From Sulfurospirillaceae bacterium (GTDB taxonomy: Bacteria > Campylobacterota > Campylobacteria > Campylobacterales > Sulfurospirillaceae), in the NCBI GenBank assembly GCA_028684065.1, contig JAQUGO010000003.1, forward strand, positions 1-60,070: DNA of 60,070 nt, in the 5' to 3' direction. Shown here in pieces: positions 13,923-53,366 of the stretch; positions within the stretch are counted from its first letter, which is position 1, and every line of letters begins with the position of its first letter. The notes below the pieces were generated by a model, which made no database searches, was not told the DNA's origin, and saw only the letters and a program-made list of their open reading frames with translations. The position numbers were made by a program, and so were the translations under genes.

Positions 13923-14237
13923 ATGAGTCAAAATATTTACGACAAAGTGCGCACTAATCCGAAGTTTACAGAATTAGTCCAAAAGCGTAGTCGCTTTGCA
14001 TGGAAGCTAGCGATTATTATGTTAGTTGTCTATTATTCCTTTATACTTGTTATTGCTTTTTCTCCATCAACCTTTGGTCAACCAATAGGTCATGGTGTCA
14101 CGACCGTTGGTATTCCCATTGGCTTATCTATTATTTTTATTGCTTTTATTCTTACAGGCATTTATACGCGCAGAGCGAATGGTGAATTTGATGAGTTAAC
14201 CAATCAAATTAAAGAAGAAGCAAGGAGTGTCAAATGA
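13923..14237 (+). CDS. DUF485 membrane protein, partner of ActP (YjcH-like)
   Basis: A 104-residue inner-membrane protein with two hydrophobic helices (about 27-50 and 60-82) and charged ends, matching the DUF485 family (E. coli YjcH). These small proteins are encoded with SSS acetate permeases and are thought to help assemble or regulate them. CAAGGAG precedes the ATG. Its stop overlaps the actP start by 4 bp, so the two are made together. Expression is probably driven by the tandem-repeat promoter just upstream. Confidence 0.88.
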
Positions 14238-15880
14238 AATGGGGATTGCTACTTTTAACATTAAGCAATATTTTATTTGCCTCAGGCGGTGATGCTGGTG
14301 TTTCGGGTCAAAGAGACCTCAATGTTTCAGCGATTATTATGTTCTTATTATTTGTTCTTGCAACGCTTGGGATTACCTATTGGGCTGCAAAACGAACGAA
14401 AACAGCCAAAGACTTTTATACAGCAGGTGGAGGAATTACAGGTTTTCAAAATGGTTTAGCCATTGCCGGTGATTACATGTCAGCTGCTTCTTTTTTAGGA
14501 ATTTCTGGACTGGTGTATATGAAAGGGTTTGATGGGCTTATTTACTCTATAGGGTTTTTAGTAGGGTGGCCCATTATTCTTTTCTTGATTGCGGAACAGT
14601 TACGAAATCTTGGAAAATATACTTTTGCTGATGTCGCTTCATATCGTTTAAAACAAACGCCTATTCGTACTCTTGCGGCTCTTGGCTCTTTGGCTACAGT
14701 TGCTTTGTACTTGATTGCTCAAATGGTTGGTGCAGGTAAATTAATCCAAGTATTATTTGGACTAAATTATGAATATGCTGTTGTCATGGTAGGAATTTTG
14801 ATGATACTTTATGTCACTTTTGGTGGCATGTTAGCTACAACATGGGTTCAAATTATTAAAGCAATTTTATTACTCTCTGGTGCTTCTTTTATGGCTGTGA
14901 TGATTATGTATAAAGTTGGTTTTAGTTTTGAAAATCTTTTTTCCCAAGCCGTTGTAGCTAAAAAAACAGTAGCTATTATGAGCCCTGGAGGCTTAGTAAG
15001 TAATCCAATATCGGCCATTAGTTTAGGTATTGCACTAATGTTCGGTACGGCTGGTCTTCCTCATATCTTAATGCGATTTTTCACTGTTAATGATGCGAAA
15101 GAAGCTCGTAAATCTGTTTTTGTTGCAACAGGTTTTATCGGTTATTTTTATATTTTAACGTTTATTATTGGATTTGGTGCTATTGTTTTATTGACAGGTG
15201 ATCCACAATATTTTGATACGGTCAAAAATACACTTATTGGTGGCAATAACATGTCAGCGATTCATACCAGTCATGCCATTGGTGGAAATCTTTTCTTAGG
15301 ATTTATTTCAGCAGTTGCTTTCGCAACGATTTTGGCTGTTGTTTCAGGACTTACTCTTGCCGGTGCTAGTGCTGTGAGCCATGATCTTTATGCCAATGTT
15401 ATAGCGCGTGGTCGTGCTGATGAAATGACAGAGATGCGCATTTCTAAGTATGCAACTATTGCTCTTGGTATTATTGCAATTTTCTTAGGGATTGCATTTG
15501 AAAAACAAAATATTGCTTTTATGGTAGGTTTAGCCTTTGCTATTGCAGCCAGTGCAAACTTCCCCATACTCTTTTTATCCATGTATTGGAGTAAACTAAC
15601 CACAAGAGGAGCTGTATGGGGTGGAAGTATTGGTCTTGCAACGGCTGTTGTACTTGTTATTTTGAGTAAAGCAGTGTGGGTAGATATTTTAGCCAATAAA
15701 ACGGCTATTTATGCGTATGGAAATCCTGCTTTATTTTCAGTTACTATTGCTTTTATAGCCATTTGGTTTTTCTCTATCACCGATAAGAGTGAGGATGCTA
15801 AAAATGAAATTGCAGCGTACGAGCATCAGTATATTAGAAGTCAAACAGGAATAGGCGCAGAAGGCGCTTCTAGTCATTAA
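14234..15880 (+). CDS. actP: Cation/acetate symporter ActP
   Basis: A 548-residue sodium:solute symporter (SSS family) with an N-terminal signal-like segment and about 13 membrane helices. Family signatures are clear: [10 protein letters not shown] followed by [10 protein letters not shown] near the N-terminus, [14 protein letters not shown] in the middle, and [12 protein letters not shown] later. It imports acetate (and probably propionate or glycolate) with a cation. acs follows 41 bp downstream, giving a complete uptake-and-activation unit. Confidence 0.94.
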
Positions 15881-15921: not shown

Positions 15922-17868
15922 ATGTCACAACTTTTTGAACCAAGTAGAGCTTTAAGTAAAGAAGCCAGAATTAAAAATATGTGCGAATACAAGGAGCTCT
16001 GCCTCCAAGCAGATGAGGATTTTGAAGGATATTGGGATAAGCTTGCGAGAGAAAAAATTGAGTGGTTTAAGCCTTATGATAGAGTTTTAAATGAGGATAA
16101 TGCTCCATTTTATAAATGGTTTGAGGGTGGTAAATTAAATGTTACACATCAATGTTTAGGGCGGCATCTAAACAAGCGCAAAAATAAAGCGGCGATTATT
16201 TGGGAGGGAGAAGATGGTAAAAAAAGAATTATTACCTACCTTCAGCTTTTCTATCGTGTAAATCGCTTGGCAAATTTAATGCGCAATAAATTTGGCATTA
16301 AAAAAGGTGATAGAGTTGTTTTGTATTTACCAATGATACCAGAAGCTGCATTTGCGATGTTGGCGTGTGCCAAAATTGGGGCTATTCACTCTGTTGTATT
16401 TGGTGGATTTTCAGCTGAGGCACTCAGAGATCGTGTTATAGATGCTCAAGCAAAACTTGTTATCACAGCGGATGGTGCCTTTCGACGAGGTAAACCTTAC
16501 ATGCTAAAACCTATGGTTGATGAGGCATTAAAAGAAGGTTGTGAATGCTGTGACAAAGTATTAATTGTTCAGCGCAATTTTGAAGATATAGAGTATGTTC
16601 CAGGGCGAGATTATGTCTATAATGAGTTGATTATGAATGAATCGCAATATTGTGATCCTGAATGGATGGATGCGGAAGATCCTCTTTTCTTGCTTTATAC
16701 GTCAGGAAGTACGGGTAAACCAAAAGGTGTACAGCACTCAAGTGCAGGTTATATTCTATGGGCACAATATACAATGGAACATGTTTTCGATGTCAAAGAG
16801 AATGATACCTTCTGGTGTACAGCTGATGTTGGTTGGATAACAGGACATACCTACATCGTTTATGGGCCTCTTGCTATGGGCGCTACAACCATTATGTATG
16901 AAGGTGTTCCTACCTTCCCAGATGTAGGTAGATGGTGGAATATGATTGAAGAACACCGTGTTAATCAGTTTTATACTGCTCCTACGGCCATTCGATTGTT
17001 ACATAAAGAAGGTGCTGATGCACCCGCGAAGTATGATTTGAGTTCACTTAAAGTATTAGGAACAGTAGGGGAGCCTATTAATCCTGATGCATGGATGTGG
17101 TACTATGAGCAAATTGGTGGTGGTAAATGCCCAATCGTCGATACATGGTGGCAAACAGAAACTGGTGGGCATATGATTACACCTCTTCCTGGCGCAACTC
17201 CGATTAAACCTGGGAGTGCGACATTCCCACTTCCTGGTATTAAAGCTGAAATTATTGATGAGCATGGTAATCCAACACCACAAGGTGAAAAAGGATTCTT
17301 GTGTATTACAAAGCCTTGGCCATCTATGATTCGTAATATTTGGGGTGATCCAGAGCGATTTGTAAAATCCTATTTTGGTGATTGTAAAAAAGATGGAAAG
17401 CCAGTTTATTTTTCCGGTGACGGCGCGATGTACGATGATGATGGATACATCGTCATTACAGGACGTACTGATGACGTAATCAATGTTTCTGGCCATAGAA
17501 TTGGAACGGCAGAAATTGAAGCAGTTCTTGGACATCATGATAATGTGGCTGAGGTTGCTGTTGTTGGTAGACCTGATCCTATTAAAGGTGAGGGTATCTT
17601 TGCCTATATCGTTATCAAAGGTGAAGATAGTTTAAGTGAAGAAGTGTATATGATTCAAGAGCTTAATAAGTTGATTGTTAAAGAAATTGGAAATATCGCT
17701 AAACTTGATGCGATTCGTTTCGTACCTGGTTTACCAAAAACAAGAAGTGGAAAAATTATGCGTAGAATTCTTCGCTCTATTGCTAAGAAAGAGCCAATTA
17801 CTCAAGATATTTCAACGTTGGAAGACCCTTCAATCGTTGAAAAAATTCAAAATCTCGTTCAATTTTAA
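15922..17868 (+). CDS. acs: Acetyl-CoA synthetase
   Basis: A 648-residue AMP-forming acetate:CoA ligase, full length. The P-loop-like motif [11 protein letters not shown] lies near residue 258, the W-W-Q-T-E-T-G motif near 410, the hinge/core region [13 protein letters not shown] near 515, and the catalytic, acetylation-prone lysine in [10 protein letters not shown] near 605. The tryptophan in W-W-Q-T-E-T-G narrows the acyl pocket to acetate. GGAT precedes the ATG. A strong hairpin terminator follows. A separate propionyl-CoA synthetase (prpE) lies at 36.8 kb. Confidence 0.96.
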
Positions 17869-33357: not shown

Positions 33358-34812
33358 TTAAAGCGCAAAAAGGTCACTAAACTCATTAAAATTCATGGTT
33401 TCCAAGTTGGCTTGATTGGCACATACTTTTTCAATAGTCGCACATTGCTTTGGACTTAATCGTCCTGCAAGATTGGCTTTGAATTTTTTAATTAAAAGAG
33501 GAATTCCTTCTTCACGTCTGCGTTTATGCCCCACGGGATACTCAATCTCTACTTTCTGACTACTCGTGCCATCTTTATAAAAGATTTGAACGGCATTGGC
33601 AATGGAGCGTTTATCAGCTTCTAAATATTCTTTGGTGTAACGCTCATCCACTTCAACAATCATTTTATCACGTAAAGCATCTACTCGTGGGTCATCGGCA
33701 TAGCTATCTTCATAATGCTCAGCCGTTAAATGACCATAAATCAAAGGAATGGCTACCATATATTGAATACAATGGTCACGATCCGCTGGATTGGCAAGAG
33801 GGCCAACTTTATTGATAATACGATGTCCTGATTCTTGCGTTGTAATGACAATTTTTTCAATTTCATCTAATCTATTATGCGTTTCATCATACAATTTAAT
33901 GGCACATTCAACCGCTGTTTGGGCATGAAATTCTGCAGGAAAGCTGATTTTAAATAAGACTTGCTCCATGACATAGCTTCCAAAAGGTTGAGGAATGGTG
34001 AGTTTTTTACCCCCCATTTTAACATCTTCATAACCCCAAAATTTAGCACTTAAAGCGGAAGGATAACCCATCTCTCCTGCGAGTGCTTTTAAGGCCAAAT
34101 TTACACCACGACTACTAGCATCGCCAGCTGCCCATGATTTACGAGAGCCTGTATTGGGAGCATGGCGGTAAACTCTGAGTGCTCCACCATCAACCCAAGC
34201 ATTGCTGACTGCATTGCGAATTTCGTCAAAAGTACCGCCAAGCATTTTAGTGGCTACGGCTGTTGAGGCAACACGTACAAGAAGTACATGGTCCATACCT
34301 TCTTTGTTAAAACAATTTTCTAGGGCAATAATGCCTTGAATTTCATGCGCTTTAATCATAGCCGTTAAAACATCTTTGACTTTTAAAGGCTCTTTGCCTT
34401 CACTTATATTCTTACGACTCAAATAATCACCCACAGCCCAAATAGCCCCTAGATTATCACTAGGATGTCCCCATTCTGCGGCAAGCCATGTGTCGTTAAA
34501 ATCAAGCCAACGAACCATTGTTCCCACATTAAAAGCGGCACGCTCAGGGTCTAATTGGTATGAAGTGCCTGGAATTTTGGCTCCAAGTCCTGGCATCGTT
34601 GCACCTGGGACTACAGGGCCTAAAAGCTTGGTACATTGTGGAAATTTAAGGCCCAAGAGCCCACATCCAATAGTATCCATTAAACTGTAACGTGCTGTAT
34701 CATAGGCTTCTTTACTATTAATTGTAAAAGAATCCGCATAGGTCGCGATATCCGTTAACAACTGGTCGAATTCTGGTCTTTGTGTATCCAATACACCCAT
34801 ATTTGTACTCAT
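33358..34812 (-). CDS. prpD: 2-Methylcitrate dehydratase PrpD
   Basis: A 484-residue MmgE/PrpD-family enzyme that dehydrates 2-methylcitrate to 2-methylaconitate. It aligns by memory with E. coli PrpD over its whole length: [29 protein letters not shown], and [17 protein letters not shown]. An earlier in-frame ATG at 34836 would overlap prpC, but it has no ribosome site; AAAGGA at 34818-34823 is 5 nt from the ATG at 34812, so that start is preferred. It is the last gene of the prpE-B-C-D operon. No acnD/prpF pair is present, consistent with PrpD chemistry. Confidence 0.95.
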
Positions 34813-34825
34813 CATATTCCTTTGA

Positions 34826-35947
34826 TTATCGTTCATTTAGCGCTACATAAGCTCTATTGTCTGGTCCAATATATTCAGAATTTGGACGGATTAGTTTATT
34901 ATCCCCTCGTTGTTCTACCACATGTGCTGCCCAACCAGCAGTCCGACTCATAATAAAAATAGGGGTAAAATACGCCGTTGGTATTCCCATAAAATGGTAC
35001 GTTGAAGCACTGTAGAAATCTAAGTTTGGAAAGAGTTTTTTCTCATCCCACATGACTTTTTCAATCGCTTCGCTGATAGGGAAAATGGTCGTATTTTTAC
35101 AATCATCCGCCAGTTTACGTGACCACTCTTTGATGACAATGTTACGTGGGTCGTTGCTCACATACACACGGTGTCCAAAGCCCATAATTTTAGCTTTATT
35201 TTCCAATTTTTCAAAGATACCTTTGGTTGCATTTTCCGGTGAGCTAAATTCAGATATAAGCTCCATCGCCGCTTCATTAGCCCCTCCATGCAAAGGTCCA
35301 CGAAGCACGCCAATGGCGGCAGTGATGGCTGAATAAATATCAGATAAAGTTGAAGCGGCAATACGCGCGGCAAAGGTTGAGGCGTTAAATTCATGCTCTG
35401 CATACAGAATTAAAGAAACATGCATCGCCTTAATCCAAAGCTCATTAGGTGCTTTACCATGAAGTTTTTCTAAGAAGTAACCCCCAATGCTATCTTGTGT
35501 GCTGTTCGTATCAATCTCTTTTCCATTGATGTGATAATGATGCCAATAGAGTAAAATCGAAGGGAAAATTCCCAATAATCGTGTAATGATTTCGGCTTGA
35601 TTGGAAAAATCACTCGTTTCTTGCTCTAAACAGCCTAATGTTGAACATGCGGTGCGCATAATATCCATAGGATTGGAATTTTTAGGCAATGTTTTTAAAA
35701 CCGTTTTAAGAGCTTCAGGAAGACTGCGTGCAAGGATAAGCTCTTGTTTATACTGTGCTAACTCTTTGGGTTTAGGAAGCTCTCCTTTGGTTAAAAGATA
35801 GGCGACTTCTTCAAAGGTAGCATTTTGGGCTAAATCATAGATGTCATACCCACGGTAATTAAGCCCATGGCCTGTTCCTACCGTACAAATAGCAGAACGT
35901 CCTGCAACAATACCTGCTAAGCCACCTGTTTTTTTTGTATCTTTCAT
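34826..35947 (-). CDS. prpC: 2-Methylcitrate synthase PrpC
   Basis: A 373-residue citrate-synthase-fold enzyme joining propionyl-CoA and oxaloacetate. Family motifs: G-G-L-A-G-I-V-A-G-x-S near the start, the [12 protein letters not shown] (catalytic His) segment, and G-F-G-H-R-V-Y. The short type II/methylcitrate length and operon position favour PrpC over GltA. AGGAG precedes the ATG. It follows prpB by 9 bp. Confidence 0.94.
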
Positions 35948-35956
35948 GGGTGTCTC

Positions 35957-36838
35957 CTATTTTTTGCATGTGAAAAGCGCATCCAGCTTTTCTTCAAAAG
36001 CATGGTAATTGAGCATATCATAAAGCTCCATGCGTGTTTGCATCGTTTCGATTGAATTCTTTTGGCTACCATTCTCTAAAATATCTTTGAAAACATTTAA
36101 GGCAGCCTTATTCATCGCACGAAAACCAGACAGAGGATAGAGTACCATAGCAATTCCCACAGCGTCTAATTCTTGACATGTGAAGTAAGGTGTTTTACCA
36201 AATTCAGTAATATTGGCTAAAACGGGTACTTTGATAACATCCGTAAATTGTTTATACTCTTCAAGGGTATGAATGGCTTCGGCAAAGATCATATCAGCTC
36301 CCGCCTCCACATAGGCACTTGCTCTCTCAAGCGCTGATTGTTGTCCTTCACTGGCATGTGCATCGGTACGTGCCATAATGACAAAATCCTCATCAATGCG
36401 TCCATCAACGGCCGCTTTAATGCGGTCACTCATCTCATCAATGCTCACAAGCTCTTTATTAGGGCGATGGCCACATCGTTTTTGTGCCACTTGGTCTTCA
36501 ATATGGCACGCTCCAGCCCCTGCTCGAATAAGTTCTTTAATAGTACGAGCAATATTAAAAGCTCCACCCCAGCCTGTGTCAGCATCGACTAAAAGTGGTA
36601 AATCGCTTGCAGCAGTAATGCGCCTAACATCAATGCACACATCTTCTAAATTGGTCATTCCTAAATCGGGTAAGCCAATGCTAGCATTGGCTACACCGGC
36701 TCCACTTAAGTATAAGGCTTTATGTCCTACACGTTGTGCTTGCATGGCACTGTACGCGTTAATAACACCTATGATTTGAAGAGGATTTCCCTCTTTGACT
36801 GCTTGTCTAAATTTTGTTCCAGCACTAACGATACTCAT
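35957..36838 (-). CDS. prpB: 2-Methylisocitrate lyase PrpB
   Basis: A 293-residue isocitrate-lyase-superfamily enzyme cutting 2-methylisocitrate to succinate and pyruvate. The catalytic K-R-C-G-H loop ([10 protein letters not shown]), the metal-binding D-A-D-T-G-W-G and the S-G-A-G-V-A-N start region are visible. Length fits PrpB rather than the longer isocitrate lyase. It overlaps prpE by 4 bp (ATGA). Confidence 0.95.
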
Positions 36839-38748
36839 TTTTTACCTTTTTTTATTTGTTGTGGATACCCTAGGGTCCCAATGGCTTTTTGAATCTCTTC
36901 TAAGACACTTTCATCCTCAATCGTTGAAGGCATACTCCACTCTTTCCCATCAGCCATACTACGCATTGTACCACGTAGAATTTTGCCGCTTCTCGTTTTA
37001 GGAAGTCTATGGACAACCGTAGCAAGTTTCAATGCAGCAACCGCTCCAATTTCCTCACGTACCAGTTGTACAACACCATCAGCTAAAGATTGAAGGTCAC
37101 GCTCTATACCATCTTTTAGAACAACAAAGGCCATTGGCACTTCGCCTTTAAGTTCATCATCGACACCGATAACCGCACATTCTGCAACATCAGGATGTTT
37201 AGCGATAACTTCTTCCATTTCACCTGTAGAGAGTCGATGTCCTGCGACGTTGATAACGCCATCCATTCTTCCCATAACCCACACATAGCCTTCTTCATCA
37301 ATATAACCACTGTCCCCGGTGAGGTAATAGCCTGGATAAAAGCTGAGATAAGATTTTTTATAGCGGACATCATCTGACCAAATGCCCATAAGGCATGAAG
37401 GTGGAAGTGGGAGTTTGAGAACAAGATTACCCAGTTGATTGGGTTTACATTCATTCCCTTGTTCATCAAGAGCTTTGAGGTTAAACCCCGGCATTGGTTT
37501 GGTAGGTGAGCCTGCTTTAATAGGCATTGGATCAAGTCCCATAGGATTGGCCGCAATTGCCCAACCTGTTTCTGTTTGCCACCAGTGGTCAATAACCGGT
37601 TTACCTGTCATTTTAGTAATCCACTCTAGCGTATCACTGTCACAACGCTCACCAGCAACAAAGATACTTTTTAGGGCGCTTAAATCATATTTTTTAAGCC
37701 ACTCTCCTTTAGAATCTTCTTTTCGAATGGCTCTAAATGCTGTAGGTGCCGCAAAAAGGATATTGACTTTATATTCATCACATATCCGCCAAAATGATCC
37801 TGGATTTGGTGTTTTGACAGGTTTTCCTTCATAGACGATGGTAGTACAGCCATTCATAAGTGGTCCATAAACGATATACGAGTGTCCTACCACCCAACCA
37901 ACATCGCTTGCTGCCCAGAAAACGTCTCCTGGTTTGGCATTGTAAACATTGTCCATAGACCATTTCATCGCAACAGAATGTCCACCATTGCTTCGAATAA
38001 CACCTTTTGGTTTACCGGTTGTTCCTGACGTGTAAAGGATATAAAGAGGATCTGTAGCGTCGACTGGAACACACTCGACAAGACCCGCTTTTTCTTCCTC
38101 AACCTCCCAGTCCACATCACGCCATGGAAGCATGTTGGCACGTTCTTGTGGTCGTTGCCAGATAAGGCAGGTTGTGGGTTTATGGCTTGATTGTTTAATC
38201 GCTTCATCTAACAGAGGTTTGTATTTAATGACTCTGCTGATTTCAATACCGCATGAAGCACTAATAATCACACGAGGTTTAGCATCCTCAATACGCGTTG
38301 CCAACTCATGTGCGGCAAAGCCTCCAAAAACGACCGAGTGAATTGCTCCGATACGAGCACATGCAAGCATCGCAATAATGGCTTCTGGAATCATTGGCAT
38401 GTAGATAACAACACGATCGCCTTTATTAACCCCTTTGTTGACTAAAATCGACGCTGTCTTGGAAACACGCTCACGTAACTGCTTATAAGTATAGGTTCGT
38501 TTAGTATCTGTGACGGGAGAATCATAGATGATGGCGAGTTGATTGCCTCTACCATTATCAATGTGTAAATCAAGTGCATTATAACAGCAGTTCATACACC
38601 CACCTACAAACCAACGGTAATGACTATCCACGACATCTAAAACTTTATCCCATTGATGATACCAATGTACTTTGGTTGCAGCATCAGCCCAAAATTTTTC
38701 TGGGTTTTCGATGGATTCTTTGTAGGTCAAATCATATTTTGATGACAC
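36835..38748 (-). CDS. prpE: Propionyl-CoA synthetase PrpE
   Basis: A 637-residue AMP-forming acyl-CoA synthetase. [11 protein letters not shown] near residue 235, [10 protein letters not shown] near 395, the core [13 protein letters not shown], and the catalytic lysine in [10 protein letters not shown] near 590. G-M-D-G versus G-T-D-D in Acs and the PrpE-type N-terminus distinguish it from Acs at 15.9 kb. It starts at a GTG with a near-perfect TAAGGAGG site. It is the first gene of the methylcitrate operon and faces the divergent HTH regulator. Confidence 0.94.
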
Positions 38749-44031: not shown

Positions 44032-44769
44032 TTACTGGTTTAGTTGGATGAGTTGTTCGCCAAATTGATGCAAAGTACGTTCATCCATCCGTATGGCAAG
44101 TCCTGAAATACCAATTGCGCCAACAAATTCCTTTTTACTATTAAAATATGGAATTGCTAAAGATTTTAAGCCAAATTCATGCTCTTCATTGCCAATTGCA
44201 TACCCACGTGTTTTGATACGTTCGACTTCACGATTCATTTTACTAACCGTTGTTATGGTATTGCTGGTATAGTGTTTTAACTCTAAGGTTGCACAATCGA
44301 TTCCCAAATAGGCAATGAGAATTTTTCCAAAAGCATTGGTATGTAAAGGAGCATGCAAACCAATCGCATTACGTGTTTTTAAAACACGATTTGATTTGTC
44401 CACTTGGTTGAGGTATAAAACGGCATTGTTATCGTAAATACCGATATAAGAACTCTCATTGGTTAATGAAAAAATGTCATCCAATAATATTTGTGTTTTT
44501 GAAATAATCTTTTCCCTATCATCTTTAAGAACGATTTTACGCATCAAATCACTTAAAATAATCTCTTTTGTATTATCCTTATATTCAATGAAATCTTCAC
44601 TTTGTAAGGTTGTAATAAGCCTTGACATCGTACTTTTGTCAATATCAAATTTTTGACATAAGGCATTGGCTGTAACAGGTTTACTTGACGTTATCACCTC
44701 TTTTAAGATGAGTAAGCCTTTGGATAAAGATTTGTTTTGACTTTGCATATTAACTCTTGATAGTGACAT
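44032..44769 (-). CDS. IclR-family transcriptional regulator
   Basis: A 245-residue regulator: N-terminal winged helix (about 15-75, with the D-K-S-T-M-S-R-L-I-T-T-L recognition helix) and a C-terminal ligand-binding GAF-like domain. It is transcribed away from the CoA-ester operon that starts at 45053, the standard place for a local IclR regulator. A 9-bp inverted repeat, ACTAATCAT / ATGATTAGT, lies just ahead of its start. A ligand such as mesaconate, glyoxylate or a CoA ester precursor is possible. Confidence 0.9.
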   Translation of the reverse strand: MSLSRVNMQSQNKSLSKGLLILKEVITSSKPVTANALCQKFDIDKSTMSRLITTLQSEDFIEYKDNTKEIILSDLMRKIVLKDDREKIISKTQILLDDIFSLTNESSYIGIYDNNAVLYLNQVDKSNRVLKTRNAIGLHAPLHTNAFGKILIAYLGIDCATLELKHYTSNTITTVSKMNREVERIKTRGYAIGNEEHEFGLKSLAIPYFNSKKEFVGAIGISGLAIRMDERTLHQFGEQLIQLNQ

Positions 44770-45052: not shown

Positions 45053-46174
45053 ATGATGGATTTATCGAAGCTAACAGCACAAGATGATTTAACACCAGTT
45101 CTAGGTGGCTTCTGGCCTGGCATACAAATCTATTACCCACCCATCAAATTTAACCCCCTTGATGGCTCGTATGAGAGTATGGAGCAAGCCAAATTTAGGT
45201 TACAAAAACATGCCTATAAAACTAAAGCGCACACGCTTTTATTTGACCTTGAAGACGGATGTCGGATGAAAGATATGTCTCGAAAATTGCTTTTAGAGGA
45301 GTTACCAAAATTTCCTGAACGAGATTTCCAAATTGCGATTCGAATCAATCCTTTTCGAACAGATGAGTATGAGGAGGATTTAAAATTACTCAAACAGATA
45401 CATCGCTATATTGATGTTATCGTTTTGGCAAAGGCTGGAGAAGTTTATGGAGATGCCGAAATAAGAGATTTATCTTCTTGGCTGGTATCAATTGGTAGTT
45501 CACTGACGATACAGCCTATCATTGAACATCCAAAATCCCTTCACATCGCATCCAAATTGATGAGTTATCAAACCGTTAAACACGTTGTTTTTGGCATTCA
45601 CGATTTTTCCAAAGCGATGGCGTATAAAATTACACCGGAGGGTTGGATTGATGAGTTAGAAACATTTTTCAATCTTTTAACGATGGAGGCGCGTATTCAC
45701 GGTAAAGGGGTTATTGGTGGGGTTGAAGTTCTTTTAACACCTAATTCTTTACCAGATAGTTGTTTAGAGAAAAAAGATATCCGAAGATGGCTTGATTTAC
45801 ACGGTGACCATGCTAGTCGCCATGTCTACGCTCATGCGAAACGTGAAACGGCTATGGGATTGACAGGAAAACAAGTCATTACCCCCAATCACATCAATAT
45901 CTGTAAAGTAGCCTTTACTCCTTCGCCTGATGAAATTCAAAAGGATATTAATATCCTCAAAGAAGCAATTCGTGCTGATGCACTTTTAAGTGGTGCCATA
46001 CGTTATGAGGGTGAGATGCTTGATCCTCCTATGTTTGGGAAATCCTTGCAAAATATTTTAAGAGCCTATGCTTTAAAAAGTTTAAAAGAGGAAGACCAAA
46101 ACTTCGCCTTACATGTGCTAGGTAAAATGCCATTACATACTATTAAAGAAAACTGGCCATTTGGTCAAATATAA
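45053..46174 (+). CDS. CitE-superfamily CoA-ester lyase (HpcH/HpaI aldolase fold)
   Basis: A 373-residue TIM-barrel lyase of the citrate lyase beta/malyl-CoA lyase group. The substrate-binding L-L-F-D-L-E-D-G motif, R-I-N, the metal-binding E in I-I-E-H-P and D in G-I-H-D-F-S are all present, so the active site looks intact. It is longer than MCL/CitE and diverges at the C-terminus (K-E-N-W-P-F). Likely substrates are malyl-, beta-methylmalyl- or citramalyl-CoA. AAAGG is 7 nt from the first ATG. It begins the operon and is followed by the synthetase-lyase fusion after 10 bp. Confidence 0.82.
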   Translation: MMDLSKLTAQDDLTPVLGGFWPGIQIYYPPIKFNPLDGSYESMEQAKFRLQKHAYKTKAHTLLFDLEDGCRMKDMSRKLLLEELPKFPERDFQIAIRINPFRTDEYEEDLKLLKQIHRYIDVIVLAKAGEVYGDAEIRDLSSWLVSIGSSLTIQPIIEHPKSLHIASKLMSYQTVKHVVFGIHDFSKAMAYKITPEGWIDELETFFNLLTMEARIHGKGVIGGVEVLLTPNSLPDSCLEKKDIRRWLDLHGDHASRHVYAHAKRETAMGLTGKQVITPNHINICKVAFTPSPDEIQKDINILKEAIRADALLSGAIRYEGEMLDPPMFGKSLQNILRAYALKSLKEEDQNFALHVLGKMPLHTIKENWPFGQI

Positions 46175-46184
46175 GGGGCGCAAA

Positions 46185-48701
46185 ATGAAACTTGAAGAAT
46201 ATCCACAATTAGAAATCACCGTTCCAGAATTTTTAAATATTGGCGTTGCGTGTACTTCTAAACATTTAGGTACAGTAAAAGAAAATACGATTGCAATGAT
46301 TATCGAAGATACGAAGTTAGGAACCAGTGAAATTACCTATAAAACCTTAGCCAATGCATCCGATAGATTGGCAAACTTTTTGCGCTCGATTGAGATAGAT
46401 GTGCGTGATCGCGTGTTGATTTGTTTGAAAAACTCTCTTGCCTATCCCATTTCATTTTTTGGAACAATGAAAGCAGGTATCGTAGCTGTTCCAACATCAA
46501 CATTACTGAGTGGTTCAGAAGTCAAATATTTAGCGACGGATTCACAAGCCAAAGCGATTGTTTTATCGGCTTCTATGTATGATAATTTATTGCCTTATTT
46601 GGAAAATTTGGACAATTTAAGCCATATCATTGTTGCAGGAATTGCGAGTGTAGAAAATTTGTTACAACCTAAAGGGATAAAGATTTACGCATTGGATGCC
46701 ATTTTAGAAAATTTTGATGACTCTCCTAATCATTACAATTCGCGCTCAGGTGAACCCGCATATCTTGTTTATACCTCTGGTACAACAGGTTTTCCCAAAG
46801 GTGTCTTACACTCTCATCGCTCTCTCATTGGGCGTGAGCCAGCCAGTGAATATTGGTTTGATTTTAAAGAGAACGACCGCATTATGCACTCTGGAAAATT
46901 TAATTGGACATATGTACTAGGTTCGGCCTTGATGGATCCTTTGTATCGAGGTTATACGGTCATTGCACATGAGGGAGCAAATGATGCAAAAAGTTGGATT
47001 GAGCTGATTAAAAAGCATCAATGCACCATTTTTATTGGTGTTCCAACCATTTACAGGCAGATTATTCAAAAAACAGATTTTACGATTGAGGATTGCCCAA
47101 GTCTACGTCATTGTATGAGTGCAGGGGAGCATCTTTCTTCGGAAATGGTGACATTGTGGCAAGAACGTTTTAAGCAAAATATCTATGAAGCGATAGGGAT
47201 GAGTGAGTTTTCATACTATATTTCTCACTCAAAATACCGACCTATTCGCCCAGGAAGTGCTGGCTTTGTTCAACCTGGCCATAATGTAAAACTTCTTGAC
47301 CCCAATACACTTGAAGAAGTAGGTAGCGAAGAAGAGGGAATGATATGCATTGGTGAAGATGACCCAGGATTGTTTTTGGAGTATTGGAATTTGGAAGAAG
47401 ATACAGCCAAAGCCAGACACAATGGTTACTTTTTTACAGGTGATTATGCGAAACGTGATAAAGAGGGATACATTTGGTTTTTAGGGCGCAAAGATGACAT
47501 TATCAATACTTTTGGGTTTCGTGTGAGTCCTCATGAAATAGAGCGTGTTATCAAAACACATCCTTTAGTAGCTGATTGTGTGGCTTTGGGACTTGATTTG
47601 GATGCGTATAAAACCATTGTGGCTATTGTGGTTATTCCAAAAGGTGCTATAAGCAAAGAAGATGAAGCCGCGATTTTAGAATTTGGACAAAATAACCTTG
47701 CCAAGTACAAAGCGCCTAAGCAAATTTACATCGCTAGTGACTATCCTAAAACGAAAAATGGCAAAGTCTTACGCAAACAGTTGGCCAAAATTGTAATGGG
47801 TGAAGAGGCGGTAGAAATTCCCAAAGCAGAGACGTATCGTGCAAGACGTTCAATGCTTTTTGTGCCACCTTATAATGAGCGTTTTATTCAAAAATCGCGC
47901 ACACTTCTAGCCGATGCCATTATCTTTGATATGGAAGGAATCCTAGAAGAGCAACGTGTGGTCGCTCGTTTGATGATTCAAAAAGAGTTTGCTGAAAACT
48001 CCAATTTTGGAACAAGTGAGCGCATTTTACGTGTAAATAAATTGGGCACTGCAGATTTGCTTGAAGATATCAAATTAGCTAAAACAATTGATATTGATGC
48101 GCTGTTGTTTACATGTATTGAATCAGCCGCAGATGTTCTTAAGGTAGAGGAGATTTTAGAAACAATCAATCCAAAATTAGAGCTGATGATAACCATTGAA
48201 TCGCCATTAGGTGTTTTAAATATCCAACAAATTTGTGCCACTGGTGGGCGTTTACGTTGTGTAATGATAGGTTCAAATACATTAGCGCAAAAATTGCAAA
48301 TCAATTTGAAAAAAAATTCAAAAGCGATTTTTAACTATATGGCGCAAATTGTTTTAGCCGCACGTGCCTATGGCAAAATTGTCATTGATGGACCGCATTA
48401 TGATGTGAGTGATGAGTTTTCATGCGAAGCCAGTTCCAAAGATGCCTATTATCTTGGTTGTGATGGCAAAGCGGCTTTACATCCGATTCAATTAGAGTAT
48501 GTTAACGATATATTCACTCCCAAAAAAGCGGAAGTGGAAGATGCCAAAGAGATGATACTTGCTTTTGAGAAAGCACAAAAGAGTGGGCGAGAGGTGATTC
48601 AGTTTAAGAATGAGCTGATTGATCGTTCCCGCATCGAATGGGCGCAACGCATTATTACACTGTACGATAGATACCGAGAAATCGGTCAAAGCTTGTATTA
48701 G
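46185..48701 (+). CDS. AMP-forming acyl-CoA synthetase fused to a CitE-like lyase domain
   Basis: An 838-residue fusion. Residues 1-540 are an acyl-CoA synthetase with Y-T-S-G-T-T-G-F-P-K-G (196-206), a core near G-R-K-D-D-I-I and the C-terminal K-T-K-N-G-K-V-L-R-K lysine motif. Residues 551-838 are a CitE/malyl-CoA-lyase-type domain (R-R-S-M-L-F-V-P-P, T-I-E-S at 670-673, D-G-P-H-Y-D, A-L-H-P-I-Q). Two key sites are altered: D-L-E-D is D-M-E-G (582-585) and the metal-binding D of G-x-x-D is missing (I-G-S-N-T-L, 695-700). The lyase part may be inactive or changed. The ATG at 46185 with AAGGGG ahead is preferred to an upstream TTG. Confidence 0.85.
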   Translation: MKLEEYPQLEITVPEFLNIGVACTSKHLGTVKENTIAMIIEDTKLGTSEITYKTLANASDRLANFLRSIEIDVRDRVLICLKNSLAYPISFFGTMKAGIVAVPTSTLLSGSEVKYLATDSQAKAIVLSASMYDNLLPYLENLDNLSHIIVAGIASVENLLQPKGIKIYALDAILENFDDSPNHYNSRSGEPAYLVYTSGTTGFPKGVLHSHRSLIGREPASEYWFDFKENDRIMHSGKFNWTYVLGSALMDPLYRGYTVIAHEGANDAKSWIELIKKHQCTIFIGVPTIYRQIIQKTDFTIEDCPSLRHCMSAGEHLSSEMVTLWQERFKQNIYEAIGMSEFSYYISHSKYRPIRPGSAGFVQPGHNVKLLDPNTLEEVGSEEEGMICIGEDDPGLFLEYWNLEEDTAKARHNGYFFTGDYAKRDKEGYIWFLGRKDDIINTFGFRVSPHEIERVIKTHPLVADCVALGLDLDAYKTIVAIVVIPKGAISKEDEAAILEFGQNNLAKYKAPKQIYIASDYPKTKNGKVLRKQLAKIVMGEEAVEIPKAETYRARRSMLFVPPYNERFIQKSRTLLADAIIFDMEGILEEQRVVARLMIQKEFAENSNFGTSERILRVNKLGTADLLEDIKLAKTIDIDALLFTCIESAADVLKVEEILETINPKLELMITIESPLGVLNIQQICATGGRLRCVMIGSNTLAQKLQINLKKNSKAIFNYMAQIVLAARAYGKIVIDGPHYDVSDEFSCEASSKDAYYLGCDGKAALHPIQLEYVNDIFTPKKAEVEDAKEMILAFEKAQKSGREVIQFKNELIDRSRIEWAQRIITLYDRYREIGQSLY

Positions 48702-48710
48702 GAGAAAGGA

Positions 48711-49769
48711 ATGATACTCAACAATAAAATAAACAGAGGAAACTATTTTGAGGATTTTGCGATTCATCAAAAAATAGTTCATCCGCTTCCTCGTACGATT
48801 AGTCATGGCGATGTTTCCTTGTATATTGCTCTTACAGGAAGTCGGTTTGCCTTGCACTCTTCAGAGGTTTTTGCGCAGTCTTTGGGGTACGACAAAAAGC
48901 CAATTGATGATTTGCTGATGTTTCATCTCACCTTTGGTAAGTCGGTACAAGATATTTCATTAAATGCGATTGCCAATCTAGGGTATGCTGAGATTTCATT
49001 TCCTAATCCCGTTTTTGTGGGTGATACTGTATCGATGAAATCAACCGTAATAGGGCTCAAAGAGAATTCAAATCTTAAAAGTGGAGTGGTGTATGTGCAT
49101 TCCATAGGATACAATCAAGATGGTCTTGAGGTGCTCAATCTTAAGCGCTGGGTCATGGTACATAAGCGAGAACACGGCATCTCTTATAAGTTAGACAGTG
49201 TACCAACTTTTGCTAAAACAACGCCTATTAAAGAGGTAATTACGATACCTAAACTTCATGATGTTGATACCTTGGCAACAGGAGGAAAATACTTTTTTGA
49301 AGATTATGAAAAAGGTGAACGACTCACTCATCCCGAAGGGCTTACCATTGACACGAGTGACCATACCTTAGCCACTAAGTTGTACCAAAACAATGCAAAA
49401 GTGCATTTTGATGACTTTATGATGAAAGAAACTCCCATGGGTGGGCGTTTGATGTACGGAGGTCATGTCATTTCTGTGGCGCGCTCACTGTCATTTAATG
49501 GTTTGCAAAATGCAATGTGGCTCTATGCGATAAACAGCGGTGTGCATGCGAACCCCACTTTTGGTGGCGATACAATTTATGCGTACACTGAAATTTTGGA
49601 GACTATTGAGCATGAAAGGGAAGATATAGGATTGTTACGACTACGAACGATTGCGCTTAAAAACATGAGAGCTGATGATGTGGAAAGTCCGATAGATAGT
49701 GATGGAAAATACCTTAAAAATGTGGTACTTGATTTGGATTACACAGTTGTAATCCCAAGAAATAAGTAA
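48711..49769 (+). CDS. mch: Mesaconyl-CoA hydratase (beta-methylmalyl-CoA dehydratase)
   Basis: A 352-residue double-hotdog MaoC-type hydratase. Long stretches match remembered Mch from Chloroflexus and Rhodobacter: N-Y-F-E-D-F, P-R-T-I-S-H-G-D-V, G-S-R-F-A-L, F-G-K-S-V-Q-D-I-S-L-N-A-I-A-N-L-G-Y-A, then G-G-H-V-I-S-V-A-R-S-L-S-F-N-G-L and G-G-D-T-I-Y-A in the C-terminal half. It interconverts mesaconyl-C1-CoA and beta-methylmalyl-CoA. This is the enzyme that identifies the cluster as C5-dicarboxyl-CoA metabolism. GGAG precedes the ATG; the spacing to the fusion gene is 9 bp. Confidence 0.92.
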   Translation: MILNNKINRGNYFEDFAIHQKIVHPLPRTISHGDVSLYIALTGSRFALHSSEVFAQSLGYDKKPIDDLLMFHLTFGKSVQDISLNAIANLGYAEISFPNPVFVGDTVSMKSTVIGLKENSNLKSGVVYVHSIGYNQDGLEVLNLKRWVMVHKREHGISYKLDSVPTFAKTTPIKEVITIPKLHDVDTLATGGKYFFEDYEKGERLTHPEGLTIDTSDHTLATKLYQNNAKVHFDDFMMKETPMGGRLMYGGHVISVARSLSFNGLQNAMWLYAINSGVHANPTFGGDTIYAYTEILETIEHEREDIGLLRLRTIALKNMRADDVESPIDSDGKYLKNVVLDLDYTVVIPRNK

Positions 49770-49865: not shown

Positions 49866-50849
49866 ATGACACACCCTAATGTAGAATTATTTGAATCAGG
49901 AAAAAGCTTACCAATTATTCCCTCTTGCGAGCATTTTGCTGGCAGCGAGAAGCTGATAGGAAAAGCGTTTGAGATGCAGCGTAAACTGGGGCCTATTTTT
50001 GACATCACATGCGATTGTGAAGATGGGGCGCAAGTGGGTAAAGAAGTTGAGCATGCCAAAATGGTAGCAAAAATGGTGAATTCGGAAGAGAACCCTTATG
50101 GGATGGCAGGGGTCAGAATTCATGATTTTTCCAATGCTAATTGGAGGCAGGATATTGATATTTTAGTACCTGCTGCGGGAGAAAAATTGGCATATATTAC
50201 CTTGCCAAAAGCGACATGCTACGAAGATGCCAAAGAGCAAATAGCCTATATTCAGCTTACATGTAAAAAGAGTGGCATTCAAAGAGAAATTCCGATTCAT
50301 ATCTTGATAGAAACACACGGGGCACTTAGGGATGTTGAAAAACTAGCCACGCTTCCATGGCTACAAGTGCTTGATTTTGGATTGATGGATTTTGTCTCCG
50401 GTTATCAAGGGGCGATTCCCGCTTCTAATATGCGAAGTCCTGGGCAATTTGACCATGAACTTATTAAACGTGCTAAAGCCAATGTCACGCAAGCCGCTTT
50501 ATCCAATCATGTAATCCCATGCCACAATGTAACACTGGATTTAAAAAATAGCTATCAAACGTACGAAGATGCCAAACGAGCACGTAATGAGTTTGGATTT
50601 ATGCGCATGTGGTCTATTTACCCAACCCAAATCACAGCCATAGTCGATGCGATGAAGCCAGATTTTAATGAGCTTGAAGAAGCACAAGGTATTTTAATAG
50701 CGGCGCAAGATGCTTCCTGGGGACCTATCCAATATGCTGGAGAGCTTCACGATCGCGCTACGTATCGATATTTTTGGGAACTTGTTCAGCGTGCACATTT
50801 TAGCGGTGTTAAACTCAAGGAAGAGATAAACGAACGATTTTTTGCCTAA
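49866..50849 (+). CDS. Malyl-CoA / beta-methylmalyl-CoA lyase-type CoA-ester lyase
   Basis: A 327-residue CitE-superfamily protein. D-C-E-D-G near 51-55, R-I-H-D-F, the metal ligand E in I-E-T-H-G-A-L and D in F-G-L-M-D-F are present, with S-I-Y-P-T-Q-I replacing the usual I-H-P-x-Q near the end. Its active site is therefore complete. With the adjacent Mch, the most likely reaction is cleavage (or formation) of beta-methylmalyl-CoA to glyoxylate and propionyl-CoA. AAAGGA stands 8 nt before the ATG. It contains a TTACATGTAA copy (L-T-C-K). Confidence 0.85.
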   Translation: MTHPNVELFESGKSLPIIPSCEHFAGSEKLIGKAFEMQRKLGPIFDITCDCEDGAQVGKEVEHAKMVAKMVNSEENPYGMAGVRIHDFSNANWRQDIDILVPAAGEKLAYITLPKATCYEDAKEQIAYIQLTCKKSGIQREIPIHILIETHGALRDVEKLATLPWLQVLDFGLMDFVSGYQGAIPASNMRSPGQFDHELIKRAKANVTQAALSNHVIPCHNVTLDLKNSYQTYEDAKRARNEFGFMRMWSIYPTQITAIVDAMKPDFNELEEAQGILIAAQDASWGPIQYAGELHDRATYRYFWELVQRAHFSGVKLKEEINERFFA

Positions 50850-51213: not shown

Positions 51214-51777
51214 TTACAGCACTACCATTGCTGCAAAACTAGTTCCAACGCGTCCCACATTTTCGACTGAAACATGCATTTTTGCATCAATTCTATTATC
51301 TTCAATAAATTGTTTTTTGATTTCCAAGATGACAGGTGTTGTTGCGCCTGGAATTTTGATAGTATCGTAAAATTCACAAAAGAAGGCACTTTGAGATGAG
51401 CTAATCATCGGAGGAAAATCTTCTAAGACTTTACTCACTTCAATAGCGTAGGTTTGGATTTCACTCTCATTTTTGGCTAAAGCATTGGCGCAGAGTTTGA
51501 GTTTTTCAAGGTTCTCTTTATTGGCAAAGCAAATCGTTGCTTTTTTAGTTTTTAAGATATTGGCCAGTGTATCTTTGGGCGTGGTATCATTTTTTTTACC
51601 AATTGAAACAACCAGTGTTGCTGGATTACTGGAAAGTGGGATAAAATAAGAAAAAGGCGCAGCATTAATAACGCCATCATCTTCCGTTACAATCCACGCA
51701 ATGGGCCGAGGAATCACAGTTCCAGACATAATCTTATAGCGATCTAAGTCATTAATTTCGTCATAATTTAACAGCAT
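51214..51777 (-). CDS. Flavin reductase-like FMN-binding protein
   Basis: A 187-residue split-barrel protein of the flavin_Reduct family. Diagnostic parts: S-G-T-V-I-P-R-P-I-A-W-I (start of the domain), N-A-A-P-F-S-Y-F-I-P-L-S-S-N-P, and the D-T-x-x-N-I-L stretch. It binds FMN and may reduce or transfer flavin electrons; substrate unknown. Divergent from the class I fumarase gene with a 98-bp spacer, so joint control is possible. Confidence 0.85.
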   Translation of the reverse strand: MLLNYDEINDLDRYKIMSGTVIPRPIAWIVTEDDGVINAAPFSYFIPLSSNPATLVVSIGKKNDTTPKDTLANILKTKKATICFANKENLEKLKLCANALAKNESEIQTYAIEVSKVLEDFPPMISSSQSAFFCEFYDTIKIPGATTPVILEIKKQFIEDNRIDAKMHVSVENVGRVGTSFAAMVVL

Positions 51778-51841: not shown

Positions 51842-51875
51842 CAAGTGAAAAAATTTTTACATAGGAGCATTGTCA

Positions 51876-53366
51876 ATGGGTACGATTACGCAAGAAGACA
51901 TTAAACAAAGTATCGCTGATGCGATTCAATACATTTCCTATTACCATCCGGCGGATTTTGTAAAAGGTATGATTGAGGCATATAAGATTGAAAAATCAGA
52001 AGCAGCTAAAAATGCAATCGGGCAGATACTAATTAACTCAAAAATGTGTGCGATGGGACATCGTCCACTATGCCAAGATACGGGTTCTGTTAATGTCTTT
52101 ATCAAAGTGGGTTTAAAAGCAAAATTAGAATTAAATAAAGAGTTAGAAGATATTATCAATGAAGGTGTTGCTCTTGGGTATCAAGACCCTGATAATACCT
52201 TACGTTATTCTATCGTCAGTGACCCAGCAGGGAAGCGCATCAATACCAAAAACAACACGCCAGCAGTCATTCATTACAGTGTTAATAATTCAGATGAGAT
52301 AGAGATAACCGTAGCGGCAAAGGGCGGTGGTAGTGAAAATAAATCTAAGTTTGCTGTTCTAAATCCTAGTGATAGTATCTACGATTGGGTCATGGAAAAT
52401 GCACGACATATGGGAGCAGGGTGGTGTCCTCCAGGAATTATTGGTATCGGTATTGGGGGCAATCCTGAAAAATCAATGCTCCTTGCTAAAGAAGCCTTAA
52501 TGGGGCATGTAGATATTCATGAACTCAAAGCCAGAGGTCCACAGAATGCTTTGGAAGAATTGCGTCTCAAACTCTATGAAGATATCAATAAAATAGGCAT
52601 TGGTGCACAAGGGCTTGGTGGTCTTACGACGGTACTGGATGTTAAAATTTTGGATTATCCTTGTCATGCAGCATCTTTACCTGTTGCAATGATACCTAAC
52701 TGTGCGGCAACACGACATATTCATTTTACCCTCAAAGGCGATGGTCCAGCAGTGTTTGAACAGCCAGATTTAGATTTATGGCCTGATATTGAACTTCCGA
52801 TGGAGAGCATTAAACGTGTGAACATTGATGATTTAAATAAAGGAAACCTATCTCAGTTTAAATCAGGCGATACCTTACTTCTTTCAGGAAAAATTTTAAC
52901 AGCACGTGATGCGGCACATAAAAAAATCGTTGAGTACAAAAATGCAGGAAAGCCATTGCCTAATGGTGTTGATTTAGAAAATAAATTGATTTATTATGTC
53001 GGACCTGTTGATCCTGTTCGTGATGAAGCCGTCGGACCAGCAGGTCCAACCACATCAACACGAATGGATAAATTTACCAAAGATATGATGGAGATCAATA
53101 TCTTAGGCATGATTGGTAAAGCCGAGCGAAAACAACCAACGATTGATTTGATTAAAGAGTATGGCTCAATTTATTTTATCGCAACAGGCGGAGCGGCGTA
53201 TCTCATTTCTCAATCTATCAAAAAAGCGCGTGTGGTTGCTTTTGAGGAATTGGGTATGGAAGCGATTTATGAGTTCGAAGTTAAAGATATGCCAGTCACG
53301 GTTGCTGTGGACAGTAGTGGAGAGTCTATTCACACAACTGGCCCTGCTAAATGGAGGACTATTTAA
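51876..53366 (+). CDS. Class I iron-sulfur fumarase / mesaconase
   Basis: A 496-residue [4Fe-4S] hydro-lyase made of fused alpha (1-290) and beta (about 300-496) parts. Cys residues for the cluster appear in R-P-L-C-Q-D-T-G, G-A-G-W-C-P-P-G and near I-P-N-C-A-A-T-R; the beta part has D-A-A-H-K-K and G-P-T-T-S-T-R-M-D. Its length of about 500 is closer to mesaconase-type class I enzymes than to FumA (about 548). It could hydrate mesaconate to citramalate as well as fumarate to malate. The ATG at 51876 fits AGGAG better than the TTG at 51870. A strong terminator follows. Confidence 0.87.
   Translation: MGTITQEDIKQSIADAIQYISYYHPADFVKGMIEAYKIEKSEAAKNAIGQILINSKMCAMGHRPLCQDTGSVNVFIKVGLKAKLELNKELEDIINEGVALGYQDPDNTLRYSIVSDPAGKRINTKNNTPAVIHYSVNNSDEIEITVAAKGGGSENKSKFAVLNPSDSIYDWVMENARHMGAGWCPPGIIGIGIGGNPEKSMLLAKEALMGHVDIHELKARGPQNALEELRLKLYEDINKIGIGAQGLGGLTTVLDVKILDYPCHAASLPVAMIPNCAATRHIHFTLKGDGPAVFEQPDLDLWPDIELPMESIKRVNIDDLNKGNLSQFKSGDTLLLSGKILTARDAAHKKIVEYKNAGKPLPNGVDLENKLIYYVGPVDPVRDEAVGPAGPTTSTRMDKFTKDMMEINILGMIGKAERKQPTIDLIKEYGSIYFIATGGAAYLISQSIKKARVVAFEELGMEAIYEFEVKDMPVTVAVDSSGESIHTTGPAKWRTI

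Follow-up and report, generated by a model that had tools for sequence, protein, structure and literature searches.

An acyl-CoA synthetase fused to a CitE-like domain with an altered metal site in a conserved gene cluster of Campylobacterota

Gene cluster and domains of the fused protein

The window, a 60,070-nucleotide stretch of DNA from a Sulfurospirillaceae genome (contig JAQUGO010000003.1), harbors a gene cluster in which an AMP-forming acyl-CoA synthetase is joined to a CitE-like lyase domain. Two separate CitE-like lyases, a hydratase and a fumarase-type hydro-lyase are encoded nearby. The genes and domains are:

33358..38748, minus strand: propionate genes, in the order prpE-prpB-prpC-prpD
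44032..44769, minus strand: IclR-type regulator, divergent (best NCBIfam match BhcR, far below the cut-off of that model)
45053..46174, plus strand: CitE-like lyase 1 (373 aa), immediately upstream of the fusion
46185-48701, plus strand: fusion gene, an open reading frame of 838 aa from ATG (846 aa if an upstream TTG is the start)
46185..47819, plus strand: AMP-forming acyl-CoA synthetase domain with intact catalytic motifs, residues 1-545 (PF00501, PF13193, motifs)
47826..48698, plus strand: CitE-like C-terminal domain (malyl-CoA lyase/CLYBL fold), residues 548-838, broken metal site (PF03328, AlphaFold model)
48711..49769, plus strand: double-MaoC hydratase (PF19315, mesaconyl-CoA hydratase; 8hgn, E 9.2e-103)
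49866..50849, plus strand: CitE-like lyase 2 (327 aa), two genes downstream of the fusion
51214-51777, minus strand: flavin-reductase-like gene, flanked by lyase 2 and the fumarase; homologues lie near the cluster in many other loci
51870..53366, plus strand: class I fumarase-type hydro-lyase with both halves in one chain (PF05681, PF05683), candidate mesaconase

The order lyase 1, fusion, double-MaoC hydratase and lyase 2 recurs in nearly all loci with sufficient flanking sequence. A class I fumarase and an IclR-type regulator often accompany the cluster, the fumarase adjoining it in other Campylobacterota loci, and homologues of prpB, prpC and prpD adjoin the cluster in several Gammaproteobacteria too. 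Elsewhere in the window, an acetyl-CoA-synthetase-like gene (15922-17868) adjoins a gene for a predicted 548-aa membrane transporter (14234-15880), which resembles a solute/sodium symporter and is possibly an acetate permease.

The original prediction described an 838-residue fusion of an intact AMP-forming synthetase and a CitE-like domain, in agreement with the reading frame, the Pfam domains (AMP-binding, 46-401; AMP-binding_C, 451-527; HpcH_HpaI, 555-767) and the synthetase motifs TSGTTGFPKG (residue 197), GDYAKRD...GR (residue 419), DDIINTFGFRVSPHEIE (residue 437) and KTKNGKVLRK (residue 522). With the AMP-binding N- and C-domains and the P-loop, hinge and catalytic-Lys motifs all present, the synthetase half is a member of the ANL enzymes. 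The solved structures closest to it are those of 4-hydroxybutyrate-, anthranilate- and benzoate-CoA ligases; among the NCBIfam models listed, none was matched at its cut-off. The C-terminal domain was modelled by AlphaFold with a mean pLDDT of 90.4 as a complete TIM barrel with a C-terminal lid, the predicted fold being that of the CitE-like superfamily. The closest structures to the model are the Methylobacterium malyl-CoA lyase and human CLYBL (Z about 34), and 285 residues were aligned with malyl-CoA lyase 5ugr (Z 34.0, rmsd 2.2). Confidence in the full-length model is low over the synthetase (mean pLDDT 72.9, pTM 0.50), and the arrangement of the domains was therefore left uninterpreted.

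Active-site residues of the three CitE-like proteins

Zarzycki and Kerfeld (PMC3832036) describe four residues as absolutely conserved across the CitE-like superfamily and malate synthases: Glu141 and Asp168, which bind Mg2+, and the pair Glu44-Asp45, which holds the metal-bound waters. According to the same study, Arg76 and the lid residue Asp299 are conserved as well, save for a Glu at the lid position in the malyl-CoA thioesterase group, and the lid residue of malyl-CoA lyase (MCL) works on the adjacent subunit. Alignment to the R. sphaeroides MCL, whose numbering is used here, and conservation in the case of the HPxQ element, located these positions in the fused protein:

47928..47939, plus strand: D582-M-E-G585, DxED motif without its final Asp (MCL Asp45 replaced by Gly585)
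48030..48038, plus strand: R616-V-N618, containing the kept Arg (MCL Arg76)
48198..48200, plus strand: E672, kept metal-ligand Glu (MCL Glu141)
48279..48281, plus strand: T699, within IGSNTL (695-700), in place of the metal-ligand Asp (MCL Asp168)
48480..48491, plus strand: H766-P-I-Q769, HPxQ element, part of a stretch that is among the best conserved in the domain
48621..48623, plus strand: D813, kept lid Asp (MCL Asp299); invariant across the fused forms, Glu or Gln in the unfused ones

Both predicted losses, D-L-E-D changed to D-M-E-G and the metal-ligand Asp missing from IGSNTL, were found in this alignment at G585 and T699. Glu44 is kept as E584 and the water-holding pair is thus incomplete, while of the Mg2+ ligand pair the Glu is present and the Asp is replaced by Thr699. 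The elements said to remain (R-V-N, the Glu of I-E-S, D-G-P and H-P-x-Q) were likewise located, D-G-P as D735-G-P737 and H-P-x-Q in the region D760-G-K...HPxQ...TP, which ranks with the best-conserved parts of the domain. The equivalents of the catalytic Arg76 and the lid Asp299 (R616 and D813) are both present; the mark of the thioesterase group, Glu for the lid Asp, is absent from this protein and from the other fused copies, which have Asp. Taken together, the domain shares with the MCLs of R. sphaeroides and Methylobacterium and with human CLYBL the whole-domain fold with lid (Z 32-34), the Arg, one ligand Glu, the lid Asp and HPxQ, but differs from them by the lost Asp168 and Asp45 equivalents and by the fusion to a synthetase.

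This is in contrast to the two lyases of the same operon, which had been predicted to be intact. The tested catalytic residues are intact in lyase 1 (34 of 34 orthologues) and invariant in lyase 2 (35 orthologues, except for a gap in one row), and both proteins retain their own lid Asp. The nearest solved relatives of lyase 2 (3qqw and 3r4i) are named only as (putative) citrate lyases.

Fused and separate-gene homologues

A close copy of the lyase-like domain in a long open frame was detected in 19 of 298 Campylobacterota genomes scanned, the window genome included; within the genus of the window, among the genomes searched, it was present only in the window genome. A scan of genome contigs added fused copies from Sulfurospirillum, Arcobacter, Poseidonibacter and one contig labelled as Gammaproteobacteria. 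The survey yielded 36 distinct fused domains, nearly all from Sulfurospirillum and Arcobacteraceae, which form one clade with 100% support. Full-length fused copies in dozens of genomes rule out a sequencing artefact or a chance read-through joining two genes. The Asp45 and Asp168 equivalents are both lost in all 36 domains, so that the fusion and the residue loss are not due to chance. The Asp168 position is occupied by Lys (24), Thr (6), Asn (3), Arg (2) or Ser (1), never by Asp. The alignment revealed no restoration of the residues elsewhere in the homologues; the only possible substitute is Asn698, beside the lost Asp168 equivalent and invariant in the fused copies. Pairwise dN/dS of the lyase-like domain (NG86) ranged from 0.03 to 0.26 in the measurable pairs, synonymous sites being saturated in many Sulfurospirillum pairs, and was similar to or slightly above that of the synthetase half. 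From these codon comparisons, the domain is under purifying selection, and pseudogene decay is ruled out.

Two fused copies from Campylobacteraceae MAGs DT_7 and DT_9 (L043:8001-10523 and L044:1382-3904) carry Asp42->Asn, Arg76->Lys and Glu141->Asp in addition, and their sites are the most degenerate among the fused forms seen. The copy in the Gammaproteobacteria-labelled contig (BB4, 1.05 Mb; L048:8001-10520) is 68-69% identical and would be explained by gene transfer or by a fault in binning or labelling.

The gene set also occurs at 15 loci in Gammaproteobacteria, among them Pleionea (L056), with the synthetase and the lyase-like protein encoded by separate genes. In each of the 15 unfused lyase-like proteins with a synthetase at the locus, one or more of the four shell residues is altered, in several patterns: Glu44-Asp45 is replaced by QE, HE, HR, GA or GD, and some copies also show Asp168->Asn and Glu141->Asp. 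The lid position is occupied by Glu or Gln. Some copies (L056, L100 and L101 types) retain both direct metal ligands, and in L056 and L101, for example, only the water-holding pair is changed. The clusters L101 and L129-L136 consist of two divergent blocks adjoining prpB, plus prpC and prpD where the flank is long enough, and in the L101 type the lyase-like gene has the dehydratase and lyase 2 as neighbors rather than the synthetase. At L101 (3-15855), genes for malic enzyme and a PEP synthase regulator adjoin as well as prpC and prpD, which hints at a link to gluconeogenesis. A 1424-aa open reading frame at L100, considered as a larger fusion, results from read-through in high-GC sequence and ends in the synthetase.

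In nine close relatives, all from genomes in which a sequence search for the synthetase gave no match at E 1e-100, the metal shell is complete and the lid residue is Glu, the signature of the malyl-CoA thioesterase group. These nearest relatives outside the gene set thus share the lid Glu and the intact metal site with that group, whereas fused copies have the lid Asp and no complete shell, and unfused gene-set copies Glu or Gln with a broken shell. In a 35-row subset used for a tree with the key columns left out, the 27 synthetase-linked rows were broken and the eight without synthetase intact. Only two independent contrasts underlie this association of synthetase presence with a broken site, which is hence a pattern beyond the reach of statistical significance and no statistical proof. 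The metal site was likely lost more than once, since one intact relative (L098, beside prpB-prpC-prpD) is placed within the synthetase-linked clade of the sequence tree. Among 398 Pseudomonadota genomes scanned, the synthetase was found only in the query's own genome; in a class sample of 369 genomes, it was found in six of those with a strong match to the lyase domain, the query genome included.

Role of the lyase-like domain and pathway context

The fused protein is best explained, with a probability of roughly 55%, as a dicarboxylic-acid:CoA ligase whose substrate is most likely mesaconate or another C4/C5 acid related to it, and whose pseudoenzyme domain derives from a CitE-like protein of the malyl-CoA-thioesterase type. 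Within this gene set the domain has lost the Mg2+ shell that lyase chemistry requires, but it retains the complete fold, lid and CoA-side residues. Judged from its sequence, the domain is likeliest catalytically silent. It may bind CoA or the CoA-ester product of the synthetase and may set the oligomer, and the product could be held, handed on or gated to the beta-methylmalyl-CoA dehydratase and the lyases of the operon; the domain would then be a partner or scaffold of the synthetase in a beta-methylmalyl-CoA/mesaconate/citramalate pathway. This explanation is preferred because shell residues are lost in 36 of 36 fused and changed in 15 of 15 unfused copies and intact in the nine relatives without synthetase, and because both neighboring lyases are intact, the domain is kept by selection with the full MCL/CLYBL fold, and the fused copies form one clade. 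The original prediction had offered a channelled CoA ester or a binding or regulatory domain; the latter is favored over an active lyase, the metal site being broken in every gene-set copy with fold, CoA-side residues and selection kept. Against the pseudoenzyme explanation, most catalytic residues remain in the fused copies (D582, E584, R616, E672 and D813), and unfused forms such as L056 and L101 keep both direct ligands, the L101-type gene not lying beside the synthetase.

The Lys at the Asp168 position in 24 of 36 domains and the invariant adjacent Asn698 make a metal-independent or re-liganded activity possible. An active domain with a changed, metal-independent mechanism, for example a mesaconyl-CoA/citramalyl-CoA thioesterase or a CoA-moving module working with the synthetase, is nonetheless unlikely. 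It would fit the ancestral type (malyl-CoA thioesterase group, from the Glu at Asp299 in unfused relatives; PMC3832036), the retention of Arg616, Glu672 and Asp813 together with the Lys in two thirds of the fused copies, and a gene cluster in which no CoA transferase was seen. However, several residues occur at the Asp168 position (K/T/N/R/S), branches differ at the Asp299 position (D, E or Q), and the L043 and L044 sites are altered further. It is improbable that the domain is a structural part of a mixed oligomer with the intact lyases, for example by lending the lid Asp813 to a partner's active site and thereby docking the synthetase to them. The MCL lid residue does serve a neighboring subunit (PMC3832036), Asp813 is invariant in fused copies whereas the metal site varies, and the lyases co-occur with the fusion across loci; yet each partner lyase has its own lid Asp, and unfused forms carry Glu or Gln there. 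Equally doubtful is a still metal-dependent lyase or thioesterase whose shell is completed by other residues, with the fusion channelling a CoA ester within a single chain: the domain still has one direct ligand (Glu672), Arg616 and the lid Asp, and unfused L056, L100 and L101 types retain both ligands, but the Asp168 and Asp45 equivalents are gone from all fused copies, Lys or Arg is common at Asp168, and the operon already has two intact lyases.

The nearest named solved relative of the hydratase (48711..49769) is, by sequence similarity, beta-methylmalyl-CoA dehydratase (8hgn), which ties the operon to beta-methylmalyl-CoA/mesaconyl-CoA chemistry. The synthetase most likely activates mesaconate or a related acid, and class I fumarases can be mesaconases (PMC4682846). 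The cluster has a beta-methylmalyl-CoA dehydratase homologue, CitE-like lyases and a class I fumarase (candidate mesaconase) in common with the glyoxylate arm of the 3-hydroxypropionate bi-cycle and the citramalate cycle, but, going by the genes, an AMP-forming synthetase replaces the CoA transferase. No CoA transferase, including mesaconyl-CoA C1-C4 transferase, was seen in the gene cluster; one of family III (PF02515) is encoded elsewhere in the genome (G000:C7:125996-127090, L138). As in the citramalate cycle, an isocitrate-lyase-independent acetate assimilation, isocitrate lyase is missing and a mesaconase candidate present: in the genome, only the PrpB locus matched PF00463, weakly (50 bits).

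The fusion and a candidate pathway are already known from Arcobacter butzleri (AB1918, cluster AB1917-AB1921; PMC2147049), where they were described in 2007. That account reports the same two-domain protein and gene order as in the window, with the alpha and beta parts of the class I fumarase (AB1921) likewise in one chain. It proposes a conversion of glyoxylate and propionyl-CoA to pyruvate and acetyl-CoA with AB1918 as mesaconyl-CoA synthetase, takes the CitE domain for a possible malyl-CoA lyase, and, in the passages covered, makes no mention of the missing metal residues or an unfused form. In a search of open-licence papers, where absence is weak evidence, neither the lost metal site nor the separate-gene form nor the thioesterase-type relation was reported. 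The original prediction had included neither the unfused arrangement nor the descent from a thioesterase type, and it mentioned neither the C-terminal Asp, which is retained, nor the published AB1918 fusion. The pathway may run either as proposed for A. butzleri or in the sense of the citramalate cycle (PMC8307300), which would turn acetyl-CoA and pyruvate into glyoxylate and propionyl-CoA. A. butzleri is reported not to grow on acetate or propionate (PMC2147049), which counts against a simple role in acetate assimilation in that organism. It is a long shot that repeated loss of the metal site beside the synthetase turned a CitE-like protein of the thioesterase type into a metal-free CoA-ester module which, with the synthetase, takes the place of mesaconyl-CoA transferase in a citramalate-methylcitrate route that assimilates acetate or propionate without isocitrate lyase.

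The gene set would represent a natural case in which a superfamily with reportedly absolutely conserved catalytic residues has yielded a partner domain, with intact outgroup, separate-gene and fused forms available for comparison. It also offers a concrete handle on a carbon pathway of free-living and host-associated Campylobacterota that was proposed from a genome in 2007.
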